Shown piece by piece: positions 29,661-37,078 of a DNA stretch of 61,861 nt; position 1 is the stretch's first letter; the number at the start of each line of letters is the position of its first letter. This DNA is from a virus. The stretch lies in IMG/VR virus record IMGVR_UViG_3300020405_000676, positions 1 to 61,861 of that record; one strand, given 5' to 3'. The notes under the pieces were generated by a model, which saw only the letters and a program-made list of their open reading frames with translations, ran no database searches and was not told the origin of the DNA. The translations under genes were made by a program, and so were the position numbers.

Positions 29661-31043
29661 TTATAGGTCATTTTTTTTCATAAACTCACGCATGTTTAAT
29701 GCCTGATTTACAACTTCAGTAGATTCTGGTTCATCAGATTTAATAGAGTTACTTCTTTTTAGTTGGTCTAACAACCCACTAGATGTAACACTAATTGCTC
29801 CTTCATCATCTTCATCTAAATCTTCTACTCTAAGTGTATCAGGATTAAATTTCAAGTCTACTTTACTACCTACACCACTGCTAGAACGTGTTTTCATAAA
29901 CTGTATTTGATATCTGCCACGTTCTCTCATTGCATTGCTAGTAAAAATACCAATAACATTATCTGCTGTTTGTATTTTACTAATACCACCTGCTATATGA
30001 TGGTGGTCAAATTCTATTTCTTCTACTGCACCCCTGTTCAACTGCGATGCTGTTACAAACAATGTGTTTGTTTCCATTGCTAAGTTTCTTAATTCTTCAG
30101 ACACATACTTGTCTTTGATAAACAAATCACCTGGACTTACTCTTGCACTTATAGGACTCATTAAATCTAAGTAGTCTACAAGTATTGCATCAACTTTTAT
30201 GTCTGCGTTTATTTCATATTCTCTCACAAATGCTCTAATATCATTTGCATTTACACCATTAGGCATTTGTTTTACTCTAAACTTACCAGCACCTTTACCT
30301 TTCATACGCACTTTTAAATCAACATCATCCATGTTACGCATAATTTCTTTTGTGCTGTATTGACTTACCATTGCATCAAGACGCATACTAATAAGTTGTT
30401 CGCTCAATTCTAAACTAATGTAAACAACATTAAGTCCTGCTAAACTCCAATTCACACCTAAGTTCTGCAAGAATAAACTTTTACCTGCGCCACTACCACC
30501 AGCAAAGATTGTAATCTCTCCTTTGTTAAGTCCGCCATACAGTTTTTGGTCAATGTGTTTCCAGCCTGTGCTGACTGCACCTGCTTGGCTTTTTATGTGT
30601 TGTAATCTTTCTTTAGGATTTTCAAAATAATCCAATCCTAAATCTTTTACAAGACCTACTTGACTTGCTTCTTTGATTTTAGTTTCAACAGAACCATAAT
30701 CCTGTTTCTCTAATAAATCAGTGCTGTCAAGTATTGCTTTCTCCAATGCTTTGTGTCTACAAAATTGTTCAAATGTATCTAAGAACCATTCAATGTGATT
30801 GTCTGTCAATCCATCTATTCGTTCTAACTCTAAATTTGTTGTAGCACTTATTTGGTCTATTGTAGGAATACTGCTATAATCTGTTGCATGTTCTTTTAAA
30901 AACTTTACTGCACTTTGAAACTTCCTATTAAACATATATGGTTCAATAATATTGTTTACCCTAACAAATAGTTCAGGATCTGTAATTAAAAAATTTAAAA
31001 ACAGTTGTTGTATCTCTTCTGTATATTCTTGTATATTATCCAT
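29661..31043 (-). CDS. 41: Replicative DNA helicase (T4 gp41, DnaB family)
   Basis: The 460-residue protein has a DnaB-like N-terminal helical domain and a RecA-type motor domain starting at GLNKGEITIFAGGSGAGKSL (Walker A near residue 178). It continues with VVYISLELSE and the Walker B region AILVDYLDLM, then a TASQLNRG sensor. It unwinds DNA at the phage fork with the gp61 primase. The start overlaps the SGNH gene stop by 8 nt within the primase-SGNH-helicase unit. Identification is secure. Confidence 0.95.
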   Translation of the reverse strand: MDNIQEYTEEIQQLFLNFLITDPELFVRVNNIIEPYMFNRKFQSAVKFLKEHATDYSSIPTIDQISATTNLELERIDGLTDNHIEWFLDTFEQFCRHKALEKAILDSTDLLEKQDYGSVETKIKEASQVGLVKDLGLDYFENPKERLQHIKSQAGAVSTGWKHIDQKLYGGLNKGEITIFAGGSGAGKSLFLQNLGVNWSLAGLNVVYISLELSEQLISMRLDAMVSQYSTKEIMRNMDDVDLKVRMKGKGAGKFRVKQMPNGVNANDIRAFVREYEINADIKVDAILVDYLDLMSPISARVSPGDLFIKDKYVSEELRNLAMETNTLFVTASQLNRGAVEEIEFDHHHIAGGISKIQTADNVIGIFTSNAMRERGRYQIQFMKTRSSSGVGSKVDLKFNPDTLRVEDLDEDDEGAISVTSSGLLDQLKRSNSIKSDEPESTEVVNQALNMREFMKKNDL

Positions 31044-31797
31044 ATAGTTTATTTAACTCACTTTGTACGTGATTGTATATTAATTTATGACCTTTTTCGT
31101 TTGGATGACCATCGTTTTGGCTAACGACATTCTGGTTCATCATGTGTGTCATAGGTGTTTTAGTCCATTTAGTTAGATCCATTTGGTTAAAAAGGCTTTT
31201 TTCAAAATCAGTTAAAGCAATCTCTAAGTCAAATGTATAGTTATTTTTCATATTAGGCAAATGATTTTCAAAAGACATACTAGTAAAAATATAGTCTATG
31301 TTTTTTGTTTCTAATAAATTTTGCAAGGACAGAACATTTTTAAAATAGTCTGTTCTATAGTCTTGCAAAGTTTTTGCATATAACACATCATAATTCAGCC
31401 CTTCACTAATTTTTTCATATGACTTGAGAATACTTTTCATTTTAGGATTATCTCTGTTCATATGTTCATAATTATCTGTGTGATATCCATAAAGGTTTTC
31501 GCCATCTTGGCAAAAGTTTACCCAATTTTTTATTCTGTCTGAATACCTTTCTTTTCTATGTATTGCTGTCCATTGTATAATAACTAAGTCATAAAAATTT
31601 TTATCTAGTTCTTCTACACTTGTTCTAAAAATTTTATCATTGCTATTTCCACCTATAGCAATATTGTTTACAGTATGTTGTTCTTCGAAATGGCTTGCCC
31701 AAGTTTTTTGACCATTGTTTGTAATCATACTTGTAAATTCATCGTGTATTACTTCTGAACCTCCTGTAAAACTACATCCGTTAATTAATATGTTCAT
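31036..31797 (-). CDS. SGNH-hydrolase-like protein inserted between primase and helicase (253 aa)
   Basis: The protein shows the SGNH blocks: NGCSFTGG at the N-terminus (nucleophile S8 or so), AIGGNSNDKI (Gly/Asn blocks) and a C-terminal DGHPNEKGHKLI (D-x-H). It is smaller than the tandem pair at 9206-11415 and lacks their N-terminal extension. It overlaps the primase stop by 4 nt (ATGA) and the helicase start by 8 nt, so it is co-expressed with the replisome from the sigma70 promoter at 32778. An esterase role in replication is not obvious. Confidence 0.75.
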   Translation of the reverse strand: MNILINGCSFTGGSEVIHDEFTSMITNNGQKTWASHFEEQHTVNNIAIGGNSNDKIFRTSVEELDKNFYDLVIIQWTAIHRKERYSDRIKNWVNFCQDGENLYGYHTDNYEHMNRDNPKMKSILKSYEKISEGLNYDVLYAKTLQDYRTDYFKNVLSLQNLLETKNIDYIFTSMSFENHLPNMKNNYTFDLEIALTDFEKSLFNQMDLTKWTKTPMTHMMNQNVVSQNDGHPNEKGHKLIYNHVQSELNKLYG

Positions 31798-32771
31798 AAC
31801 ATTTTAGCCTGTACTTGTATTTTTATTTTATTATCTGTTGCATATTTAATTATGCTATTTACAGTTAATAGTCTACCATAATGCTCTACTGCATCAGCGG
31901 CATCTTTGATACCATCTTTCCAAGGAGGAAAACTAACTTCCCATCCTAGTTCAATTGCTTTGTCAATTAAATCCTTACCTGCTTCATCTCTGTCAGGACA
32001 TAATATAACACGTTTGTTTAATTTGTCAATTAAATGTGCTTGTTCTGGAGTTACTCCATTTCCTAATACACTAACACCATCTATAAGTATTGCATCAAAT
32101 ACTCCTTCTGTAACAATTACAAAATCTCTTTCACTGTTTACAAACCTGTCAATGTTAAACACATATCCACTTTGTTGATTTTTTAGATACTTAGCAGTTT
32201 CTTTGTTTGGTGGATTTACATGTCTACCTGTCCACCCTACAAGTTTATTGTTATACAAAAACGGAACTACTAATCTAGCATTATACATGCTGTCTCCAAA
32301 ATGCATCAAAGGAAACTTTCCTAATAGTCCACGTTCTATTGCATATTGTTTTACTTTGTGATTGTCATCTAAGTCTTCGACTAAACTGCAATCATCTGGC
32401 AAATCAACTTGTTTGAAATCTGCCGCACTATAGACATAATCATCTACTTCTTCTATTTCTAATACTTCGCCATACTTCATTAGATTAAGAACAACTGAGT
32501 GTATATCTTTTGCACCAACACCCAATGCTTCTGCTAATGCTTTGTATTTTTGCCCTAGTCTAGGACTTGGAGACCAGCCTGTTGTAAAGTTACAATTAAA
32601 GCAATGATAACTTATTTTACTATTTGACTGTATTACGCCACCACGTTTACGTTTATCACTACACATGGGACAATTGAATGTAGTCCAACCACTAGGAGTT
32701 TTGCCACTACTTATAGGCAAATTATCCATTAGTAATCTATGTACTTGGTCAACTAATTCATGATGATGCAT
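31794..32771 (-). CDS. 61: DNA primase (T4 gp61)
   Basis: The primase makes RNA primers for lagging-strand synthesis with gp41. Two Cys pairs (CPMCSDKRKRGG, CFNC) form an N-terminal zinc finger. The TOPRIM domain shows VIVTEGVFDAILI and LCPDRDEAGKDLID with its D-x-D. The only in-frame ATG near the 5' end (32771) has no ribosome binding site and lies 6 nt after the TATAAT -10 box. The transcript is therefore predicted to start at or within 1-2 nt of the start codon. Confidence 0.93.
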   Translation of the reverse strand: MHHHELVDQVHRLLMDNLPISSGKTPSGWTTFNCPMCSDKRKRGGVIQSNSKISYHCFNCNFTTGWSPSPRLGQKYKALAEALGVGAKDIHSVVLNLMKYGEVLEIEEVDDYVYSAADFKQVDLPDDCSLVEDLDDNHKVKQYAIERGLLGKFPLMHFGDSMYNARLVVPFLYNNKLVGWTGRHVNPPNKETAKYLKNQQSGYVFNIDRFVNSERDFVIVTEGVFDAILIDGVSVLGNGVTPEQAHLIDKLNKRVILCPDRDEAGKDLIDKAIELGWEVSFPPWKDGIKDAADAVEHYGRLLTVNSIIKYATDNKIKIQVQAKML

Positions 32772-32805: not shown

Positions 32806-33636
32806 CTAGTTTCTGAGTAAAACTTTGTCTACAGAACCTGATGTTTTATCAAATTTTACTCTTAACCAATTAGTGTTGATAACAAAGTTAAAAGGATCTA
32901 TGCCATTGTATGCTGTACTGTAAGGTACTGCGGCTGTTCCAGCATCTCCTTGTACGTTTATATCATACCAATCTGACTCTTGTGTAGGTGCTGATTCTAA
33001 TGCACTTCCTTGCATAGTAATATTGCCTACAAAGTCTGTCATATAAAATGCTACAGTATGTCTACTGTGCCTAAAGTTTTTGTCTTGGTTTCCGTACAAT
33101 GAAGATGATACAAATGTGTTTGCGGCATCTCCTAATTCTGTGTTACCTGTTTGAGTAAATGTTGTTGCACTTTGTGATGCAATAGGTTCATACTCTAAAC
33201 TGCTTCTGACTTCTAAATCTGTGATAATTCTATCATTTTGATTTGCATATAAAGGATTTTGAGACACACCACTATCAGAACTTTCTGTAATTGAAATATG
33301 ATAAAATCCAGGATTTAAATCTGTTAGGTCTCCAACAGTTAAATCTAACCTTGCTTCTCCTGATGTACCACTGTTTACTAAACTAAGTGGTTTGAAAACT
33401 ACTCTTCTGCTTGTGTTAGGATTTATAATACTTGCATATAGTGTTTTAGTGCTAAGATTTTGTAAAACTCTATCTCTATTTCTTACATAAAAGTTTAATT
33501 GATTTGTCAATCCTTTATGTACAACTAATTTTGTTTGATTCATTGGTCTATTATCCACGTTTATACCGTCCGAACTTAGAACTAAATCCACGGACTGGTT
33601 TCCTAAAATATAAATTGTATGTGCATTTCCTGACAT
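32806..33636 (-). CDS. Tail/baseplate-type structural protein (276 aa)
   Basis: A beta-rich protein with an N-terminal immunoglobulin-like region (VVHKGLTNQLNFYVRN ... FYHISITES) reminiscent of baseplate upper-protein modules. The C-terminus is NTNWLRVKFDKTSGSVDKVL, a common phage fibre or tail ending. It has a late promoter at 33660-33667. It probably sits in the tail, but the exact T4 counterpart is not recognised. Confidence 0.6.
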   Translation of the reverse strand: MSGNAHTIYILGNQSVDLVLSSDGINVDNRPMNQTKLVVHKGLTNQLNFYVRNRDRVLQNLSTKTLYASIINPNTSRRVVFKPLSLVNSGTSGEARLDLTVGDLTDLNPGFYHISITESSDSGVSQNPLYANQNDRIITDLEVRSSLEYEPIASQSATTFTQTGNTELGDAANTFVSSSLYGNQDKNFRHSRHTVAFYMTDFVGNITMQGSALESAPTQESDWYDINVQGDAGTAAVPYSTAYNGIDPFNFVINTNWLRVKFDKTSGSVDKVLLRN

Positions 33637-33684: not shown

Positions 33685-33690
33685 TCATTG

Positions 33691-34062
33691 ATGACTAAAG
33701 AAGAAGAACTCCAAGAGAAGTTTCCATTTTTAACTGGATTGTTGTTTGGCGAAAAAGAATTTGTAGGAATAGTTCAAAATCAAGACAAACAAATCATAAG
33801 TTTTTATGATATAGAAGGTTGTAAATCGGAAGAACACAAAAAATTAATGCTAGAGTATGGCGATTTATGGTGGTGGGAAAGCAATAGACAACTCCCTATA
33901 GACATTTTTTTATATCATGAAATGCAAGACTTACAATATACATTAAGAACGTTTATGTTAAAAGAAACAGAAGTATTATTTGGTCCTGTAACCAGTATGC
34001 AAAACATACTTAAAAAGAGAATAAAAAGAAGAAGTATCCAGTTGGTCAAAAAGGCAGACTAA
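33691..34062 (+). CDS. Conserved hypothetical protein, one of two plus-strand genes
   Basis: The 123-residue protein begins MTKEEELQEKFPFLTG and contains GDLWWWESNRQLPIDIFL and MLKETEVLFGPV, with a basic tail. I recall similar proteins in marine T4-like phages, without known function. A late promoter abuts the start, so the mRNA is nearly leaderless. A TTG immediately before the ATG could also start it. The stop codon overlaps the stop of the convergent minus-strand gene. Confidence 0.75.
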   Translation: MTKEEELQEKFPFLTGLLFGEKEFVGIVQNQDKQIISFYDIEGCKSEEHKKLMLEYGDLWWWESNRQLPIDIFLYHEMQDLQYTLRTFMLKETEVLFGPVTSMQNILKKRIKRRSIQLVKKAD

Positions 34063-34625
34063 ACCTTATCAACCAAAAGATTCAATTGAACAAGAATAAC
34101 CATTGCATAACCTATTGCATGGCTTCTCTTGAAAAAGTAGTCATCAGTCTTTTCCCATACTTCTTTTTCAATTACTTCCCAACTGTTTCCTACTAGATAT
34201 CTTTTACCTGGTCTAATCATTGCAAGTATCATTGCTAATTGTTCTACAGTTTTAGGTGGATGTTGTTTGATAATATCAAAATGATTACCTATATGAAATA
34301 GTTTTTCAACAACTTCTTTATGTTCAAACAATTCCCACATAGGTTCTTGTGCAAGTAATCTATCCAAATGTGCTTCACTTTCAATTTCAGAGTAAACACT
34401 ATTATTAAGAAAGTCTACTTTAAAATATCCCATCTCTTCTGCTTCTTTGTGGTCTATTGTGCTGAACTCTTCTAAAGGAAAAGAAGGAATAGGCTGAAAA
34501 TATACACCTGTGTTATGCTTTTCAAATGCATCTTCTCTTTTGATGCTGGCAGAAATATGGTCAACAAGATTTAAGAACTTGTCTCTATCTGCCATATCTA
34601 TATCAACATCAAAATTAATTTTCAT
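34059..34625 (-). CDS. Miniature DnaE (Pol III alpha)-like protein (188 aa)
   Basis: Short segments match, in order, the active core of bacterial DnaE. INFDVDIDMADRDK resembles the PDFDVDF palm motif with two catalytic aspartates. MGYFKVDFLN resembles the VKFDFLGL strand with the third aspartate. VEQLAMILAMIRPGK resembles the LAxxxALYRPG segment. FFKRSHAIGYAMVILVQ resembles FNKSHAxAYA. All three metal-binding aspartates appear kept, yet the protein is about one sixth of DnaE length and lacks PHP, thumb and most fingers. It may be a degenerate relic, a non-catalytic factor or a minimal polymerase-like enzyme. It sits with MazG, ThyX and gp62. Confidence 0.65.
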   Translation of the reverse strand: MKINFDVDIDMADRDKFLNLVDHISASIKREDAFEKHNTGVYFQPIPSFPLEEFSTIDHKEAEEMGYFKVDFLNNSVYSEIESEAHLDRLLAQEPMWELFEHKEVVEKLFHIGNHFDIIKQHPPKTVEQLAMILAMIRPGKRYLVGNSWEVIEKEVWEKTDDYFFKRSHAIGYAMVILVQLNLLVDKV

Positions 34626-35940: not shown

Positions 35941-36611
35941 ATTTTTGCATCCTTACATGCTTGTTTGATTTCATTTACTTCTTCTTTATTAGCAGAAAAC
36001 AACTTTAGCCAAAATGGAGGCTCAATGATATCTTCTATCATTTTTACTTGTTCACTGTTAAATCTTTTTAATAAATTATCACCTGTACTGCTAAGATATA
36101 ATATCCAAGGACTTACTTTTGCACTTCTTAAATCATGTACTGCTCTTGAGGGCGAAACTTCTGTAAAGTAATTCTGCCAATCTGTTTCATTTTCTTTTCC
36201 CCATCCTGCAAGATATATTACAGTTCTTTCTAATGCTTTAAGACCAGGTTCTTTTCTAACATATTCTTTTAAATATTTGTCATACTGTTTATCTGTTGCC
36301 CATTGTTTAAGTTTTACACCTGTTCTAATCAAATGCTCTGTGTAACGTTCTGGTTCAAGCCATTCATTTACTTGACATGCTCTACCATATTTTACAAATG
36401 CTTCATAGTATTGACTTTTTATAAACTCTTCCATAGTCTTAGGATTTTTAGCAGTAGTGTTTATTTCATAAAACATTTGGAAGGCTCTATGTGCTAAACG
36501 TATGTGGCTCATTTCTCTATCTGCCCAACGTCTTTTCTTTACGCACATATGGGCCGCAAGAGTTCTTTCGCTCATAAAACTTTTACCGCACCATTTACAA
36601 TCCAAACTCAT
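35937..36611 (-). CDS. Zinc-finger protein of the replication cluster (224 aa)
   Basis: The N-terminus holds a C2HC/C2H2-like finger (C5, C8, H21, C23 in CKWCGKSFMSERTLAAHMC). The rest is helical and basic, with AHRAFQMFYEINT and VRKEPGLKALERTV. It overlaps gp62 and thyX by 4 nt each. Its place between clamp-loader and thymidylate genes suggests DNA binding in replication or transcription. Not assigned to a named T4 gene. Confidence 0.7.
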   Translation of the reverse strand: MSLDCKWCGKSFMSERTLAAHMCVKKRRWADREMSHIRLAHRAFQMFYEINTTAKNPKTMEEFIKSQYYEAFVKYGRACQVNEWLEPERYTEHLIRTGVKLKQWATDKQYDKYLKEYVRKEPGLKALERTVIYLAGWGKENETDWQNYFTEVSPSRAVHDLRSAKVSPWILYLSSTGDNLLKRFNSEQVKMIEDIIEPPFWLKLFSANKEEVNEIKQACKDAKI

Positions 36612-37078
36612 TTCTTAAATATTTCCTTTACTTCTTTATCATCATAACCATTAGCAAGTGCAAGTTCTTTCAAAGATTCATCATCGTTCAAACTTAAAAA
36701 TAATTCAATTTCATCTGCTTTTAAATGAGGAAGAACACTACTGACAAAGTCTCCTCTTTTACTTTTCTTTTTTCTACTGTTTGGTGGTTTTATATATGGG
36801 TGGTGTTGCACTTTACCACTGCCAGCCGCAGTCATTAATAACCATTGTAGTTCAGGATGTTTGCTAACATCAGTAAACTTATGATTTACTAATTCATTTA
36901 CCATCCAAACATAATCAGGTGCTGACTTTCCTTGTACACTACTAGCATATCTCATCATCATCCAAGGACTAAATGCTTTCTTTTGTTCAGCATTTAATTT
37001 GTTATACCAGTCTCTATCCTTTTTATCGATAGCCTTCATAACTTCTGCTAGTGGTATCTGTGGTTTTTTAGGCACCAA
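36608..37078 (-). CDS. 62: Clamp-loader small subunit (gp62-like, 156 aa)
   Basis: Residues such as FSPWMMMRYASSVQG, PELQWLLMTAAGSG and KADEIELFLSLND fit what I recall of gp62 from marine T4-like phages. With gp44 (not in this window) it would load the gp45 sliding clamp. The start overlaps the end of the MTAN gene by 11 nt. The assignment rests on remembered motifs and context. Confidence 0.6.
   Translation of the reverse strand: MVPKKPQIPLAEVMKAIDKKDRDWYNKLNAEQKKAFSPWMMMRYASSVQGKSAPDYVWMVNELVNHKFTDVSKHPELQWLLMTAAGSGKVQHHPYIKPPNSRKKKSKRGDFVSSVLPHLKADEIELFLSLNDDESLKELALANGYDDKEVKEIFKK

Follow-up and report, generated by a model that had tools for sequence, protein, structure and literature searches.

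Could the alpha subunit of DNA polymerase III be encoded as two separate proteins? For a minimal form of the enzyme this has already been reported by Iyer et al. (2021; PMC7824862), who described it as two standalone proteins, the products of distant genes, in the group 2.2 jumbo phages. In this system, found in T4-like phages with a family-B polymerase, an N-terminal unit binds the NTP and a C-terminal unit binds Mg2+ and the template. The authors considered that the split units likely reconstitute the enzyme and may cooperate with the family-B polymerase, and suggested that the split form resembles the ancestral enzyme. Elsewhere, one fragment was noticed: CBB_328 has been called a "truncated Pol III alpha" (PMC5259590), and gp316 of Atu_ph07 a truncated or predicted alpha subunit (PMC6102473). 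Both come from the same phage group and belong to the same two-part enzyme, but they are its N-terminal half and not relatives of the protein considered here. A survey of marine jumbo phages reports PF07733 in 51.9% of one large group, and the portion consulted here makes no mention of the C-terminal half (PMC9123017). The phage halves are like the intein-split DnaE of cyanobacteria in being encoded by two distant genes, but they have no intein and comprise the catalytic core only. In our literature search, whose coverage is incomplete, no experimental work on the split Pol III alpha was found.

Here, we analyse a stretch of viral DNA of 61,861 nucleotides (the window), which encodes a protein corresponding to the C-terminal unit of the system of Iyer et al., with its Mg2+-binding aspartates and template-binding region. 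In contrast to their phages, the window belongs to a mostly marine clade that is uncultured, and this fragment does not include the N-terminal unit. The split minimal Pol III is thus already published, and the window protein adds a member from this clade. What is new is the exact position of the split, the structural superpositions, the near-complete co-occurrence of the two halves, their constant neighbours, a change at Arg390, and the presence of the system in a 141-kb phage below jumbo size.

The gene for the C-terminal half (C-half) lies on the reverse strand at 34059..34625 and encodes 188 residues, and its ATG overlaps the stop codon of the preceding gene (TAATG). A sequence-only reading had described a DnaE-like protein with the motifs FDVDIDMADRD, YFKVDFLN, LAMILAMIRPG and RSHAIGYA; all four are found, in the order of DnaE, and the family matches agree with this description. 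PHROG 11778 ("DNA polymerase") matches the protein with an E-value of 2e-66, and the full-length DnaE family PHROG 405 matches residues 55-140 with an E-value of 6e-6, while the single protein gave no significant match against Pfam, NCBIfam and the PDB sequences. The profile-profile comparison with the Pol III alpha family that had been proposed as a check is significant. Against eight full-length DnaE proteins, the probabilities were 97-98% and the E-values 1e-11 to 2e-10 across alignments; the profile of 62 relatives gave 96.9% and 2.3e-10, and two further alignments gave 1.3e-11 and 5.1e-11. The reversed DnaE profile and ten column-shuffled ones, used as controls, all gave E-values of 0.37 or worse. 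The DnaE blocks aligned with the C-half are GKHAGG (509), KFDFLG (553), FRPGP (638) and NKSH (757). The N-terminal DxDxD block alone is not placed by the sequence profile (E-value 0.08 against DnaE), and was therefore assigned from the motif itself and the structural superposition. The pN/pS of the C-half against close relatives is 0.08-0.21, and therefore the gene is under strong purifying selection. We conclude that this ORF (34625-34059) is a genuine gene under strong selection and that its product is a homologue of the DnaE palm and fingers.

The AlphaFold2 model of the C-half (pLDDT 93.6, pTM 0.83) superposes over its whole length, residues 1-188, on residues 397-779 of E. coli Pol III alpha (Z 8.4, rmsd 3.4). 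It also superposes on Taq 459-837 (Z 9.6) and PolC 968-1294 (Z 9.2), and the best Z among unrelated chains, used as a control, was 2.9. A Foldseek search with the model gave weak E-values, the best of which (0.05) was again a Pol III alpha. Relative to DnaE, the thumb (about 433-510) is deleted and the fingers are shortened.

The retention of the three catalytic aspartates, also claimed from the sequence, holds. The segment D6-V7-D8-I9-D10 (34596..34610, reverse strand, as are the following three) corresponds to DnaE D401-D405 by conservation, superposition and DnaE numbering, where D6 (D401) and D8 (D403) are the first two catalytic aspartates. D10 is equivalent to D405, a position that is Asp in DnaE and Asn in PolC (PMC3919608), so the C-half is like E. 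coli DnaE here as well as in its palm and fingers motifs. The third catalytic aspartate is D71 (D555), within K69-V-D71-F-L73 (34407..34421; DnaE K553/D555). In the fingers, R138-P-G-K141 (34203..34214) corresponds to the FRPGP motif and K166-R-S-H169 (34119..34130) to the NKSH motif. An alignment of 65 relatives, which extends down to 42% identity, shows H37, G40, K69, D71, R138, P139, K141, K166 and H169 to be invariant. D6 and D8 are kept in every relative in which the residue is covered; the apparent exception, locus L180, reads DLDID with a shift of two residues. Judging from the superposition of the model, the three aspartates would lie close together in the fold.

The architecture of a full-length DnaE, with PHP domain, complete palm, thumb and clamp-binding region on one chain, is not that of the C-half. 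In its 188 residues the PHP domain, the thumb and other C-terminal parts of Pol III alpha are absent. The GRGS nucleotide-binding motif is missing too, and consequently the C-half alone does not have a complete active site. Of the proposed "stripped-down polymerase core", the homology with the DnaE palm and fingers therefore stands, but what is encoded here is just the C-terminal half of that core, and the GS motif resides in a separate N-terminal half (N-half). The other readings suggested fare worse. A relic is contradicted by the purifying selection and by the invariant active-site residues in distant proteins, most of the invariant positions remaining so in a set of 13 rows that reaches 34% identity. 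Adaptation to clamp binding has no support, since the protein lacks the region with which alpha binds the clamp and its C-terminal tail is not conserved. As for a decoy or inhibitor that mimics the host Pol III alpha, or again a decaying relic, the one point in its favour is the resemblance to a part of DnaE. However, the protein lacks every region through which alpha contacts epsilon, beta and tau, and it keeps catalytic residues that a decoy would not need. The low pN/pS and the occurrence of the C-half in phages of very different hosts are also against this explanation, which we consider very improbable.

The missing part was found on a second small ORF, matched by PF07733 in 13 of 15 records with a C-half and located far from it. 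This N-half is about 165-180 residues long and carries GRGS, which is invariant in its family, and its sequence terminates ...WGVGRGSSVASYVLYLIGVHKIDSIKYKLDWKEFLR-stop. Among 80 N-half ORFs on environmental contigs, 77 stop 33 residues from where GRGS begins. In the 52 aligned sequences (loci L182-L194 and L195-L274, for example L199:10001-10504), the final position is Arg or Lys without exception. The N-half profile matches DnaE 227-394 with an E-value of 4.5e-15 and clean controls, and the AlphaFold2 model (pLDDT 93.3) superposes on residues 276-393 of 2HNH (Z 10.4). From the limits of this match and superposition, the N-half ends at DnaE position 393 and the C-half begins at 397. The N-half thus carries exactly the part that is missing from the C-half, and the set of three metal-binding aspartates and GS motif is complete only with both proteins. 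Unlike E. coli DnaE, the core is divided between 393 and 397 and is without the PHP domain, thumb, beta-binding region, OB fold and tau-binding part. The two halves also differ from DnaE at Arg390, which is invariant in all eight DnaE proteins and gives way to Glu or Asp in each of the 52 aligned N-halves, where an alignment shift of one residue is possible; the active site is therefore not identical to that of DnaE. The thumb was not recovered on a third protein, as neither the gene convergent with the C-half gene (hhalign E-value 0.32) nor the gene after the N-half (0.036) matches DnaE.

Two proteins that complement each other in this way could be joined after translation by a split intein, for which the dnaE genes of cyanobacteria provide a precedent (PMC3919608). 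However, the N-half stops right past EFL-R/K and the C-half begins just ahead of DxDxD, so that neither has space for intein sequence, and we give this idea practically no credence. No natural fusion of the halves occurs at the 80 N-half loci, and the retrieved flanks contain no C-half. Assembly of the two chains, if it takes place, would then be expected to proceed with no covalent joining.

The distribution of the two genes was compared with tblastn, using an N-half-specific query for the partner. The C-half is present in 63 phage records and the N-half in 62, and they occur together in 62 of the 63, as judged from the accessions and, for a few records, from organism tallies; the exception, PP728206, is a partial record of 109 kb. 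Every checked environmental contig of at least 270 kb has both halves, and contigs with both are G001, G002, G007, G008, G009, G026, G033 and G046. Only one half is found on most contigs under about 110 kb and on fragments of 157, 172 and 200 kb, which is expected because the halves lie far apart: 11 kb in Slicko01, about 34 kb in RaK2, about 105 kb in G046 and about 182 kb in Atu_ph07. In most genomes the two genes are unlinked. The divergence of the halves is nevertheless correlated across 16 genomes (Mantel r 0.71, with none of 5000 permutations as high), which is partly due to common descent.

These data bear on the alternative that the C-half has no catalytic activity and instead binds DNA or dNTP, as an accessory to the phage replisome or as its regulator, with the N-half acting separately. 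That each half is confidently predicted as a separate fold, and that the genes are usually far apart, would fit such a protein; the invariance of D6, D8, K69 and D71, the strict co-occurrence and the correlated divergence do not, and we regard it as improbable.

Among bacterial genomes the C-half was found on five contigs only, and no plasmid-borne homologues were found. Two of the loci, L178 (335 kb) and L180 (284 kb), which come from bacterial MAGs (Neomarinimicrobiota and an uncultured bacterium), have the C-half, the N-half and a family-B polymerase, and are probably phage DNA binned with bacteria.

The N-half was not found in the window, a 61.9-kb fragment, and no family-B (gp43-type) polymerase is among its ORFs; contigs of the same region of up to 110 kb also stop before reaching the partner. 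The 340-kb contig G046 is syntenic with the window and has both halves (N-half match, E-value 7e-47) and a family-B polymerase (1e-34). Every other record searched also has a family-B polymerase, apart from two contigs that measure about 100 kb or less. Between the window and G046, the identity is 80% for the helicase, 67% for the primase, 64% for the structural gene described below, 68% for the convergent gene, 63% for the C-half, 63% for MazG and 78% for ThyX, and further genes are syntenic too. MazG and ThyX had been named as neighbours of the gene, and PHROG matches support both, the Pfam match of MazG falling just under the cut-off. A third neighbour, called gp62 (36608-37078, reverse strand), matches PHROG 11758, of unknown function, which leaves that name unconfirmed.

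On the other side of the C-half, a gene on the forward strand (33688..34062) converges with it and overlaps its end by 4 bases. It belongs to PHROG 11637 (E-value 2e-32), a family with no assigned function, and is present at 168 of 172 C-half loci, in antisense orientation at 166; a functional link with the C-half is possible. The gene order in most annotated relatives is the C-half, this convergent gene, a gene often labelled "structural", the primase gp61 and the helicase gp41. In the window, profile matches and synteny identify the gp61-type DNA primase at 31794..32771 and the gp41-type DnaB helicase at 29661..31043, both on the reverse strand, within this conserved replication neighbourhood. 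In XacN1, the convergent gene is kept by the C-half and the remaining neighbours are not nearby. After the N-half come a short protein, a GroES-like protein (its label in some records is "head morphogenesis") and, a few genes further along, the gp44 clamp loader, which some records label just as AAA- or P-loop ATPase, or as hypothetical.

A separate observation concerns the gene at 32806-33636 (reverse strand), which belongs to the head or virion structural family PHROG 14467 and stands between the C-half and the primase, as in most relatives. This is an odd location for a structural gene.

The homology of each piece to a different part of DnaE, the way the pieces complement each other, their co-occurrence, the invariant active-site residues and the synteny with replication genes make it likely, in our judgement, that large T4-type phages encode a minimal family-C core as two proteins, of which the C-half is the C-terminal one, and that the halves assemble and act beside the family-B replicase. 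The C-half would supply the metal-binding aspartates and the shortened fingers, and the N-half the GRGS nucleotide-binding motif, so that one active site of the Pol-beta type would be rebuilt across their interface. The predicted pair would extend DNA ends with nucleotides, assisting the family-B replicase. Such an enzyme, with no thumb and no parts for binding the clamp or epsilon, would probably be weakly processive and suited to short tasks, and templated synthesis by a thumbless pair may be poor.

The same features could be read otherwise. The halves might together be a nucleotidyltransferase other than a DNA polymerase, one that adds a single nucleotide or a few to the end of DNA, RNA or protein, the ancestry having been kept for the chemistry and not for templated synthesis. 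The loss of the thumb and most of the fingers, the acid in place of Arg390 and the family-B polymerase already present in the genomes are in favour of this, but the fingers motifs FRPG and KSH are invariant and both half genes adjoin replication genes. We consider it unlikely, though it deserves more weight than the other alternatives.

For the two-protein polymerase, the cellular role is the least certain part and our proposals are tentative: the pair could make short extensions, fill gaps or carry out one step in the synthesis of the lagging strand. It is conceivable, but we would not bet on it, that the forks of very common marine phages are served by a functional family-C polymerase made of two chains and about 355 residues, with no thumb, clamp-binding region or proofreading contacts and an active site only when both proteins meet, which would perform a dedicated step, such as the hand-over from primer to DNA, beside the family-B replicase.

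Should the pair prove active, family C would gain a remarkably small polymerase with a catalytic site built from two gene products, and with it a natural experiment on which regions of Pol III alpha the chemistry requires. Widespread large T4-like phages would then replicate with two polymerases, not one, and the idea of Iyer et al. about the ancestral form would be easier to judge once the activity is known. For annotation, the lesson is that proteins labelled "truncated Pol III alpha" or "hypothetical" are each an intact half of a single enzyme.

The system also extends to a smaller phage. Alishewanella phage Slicko01 (141 kb, below the jumbo threshold) has both halves (L528, OQ508956.1 62597-73148). 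Its clamp-loader gene is about 2 kb from the C-half, and its family-B polymerase appears as a pair of open frames, with 578 and 322 residues.
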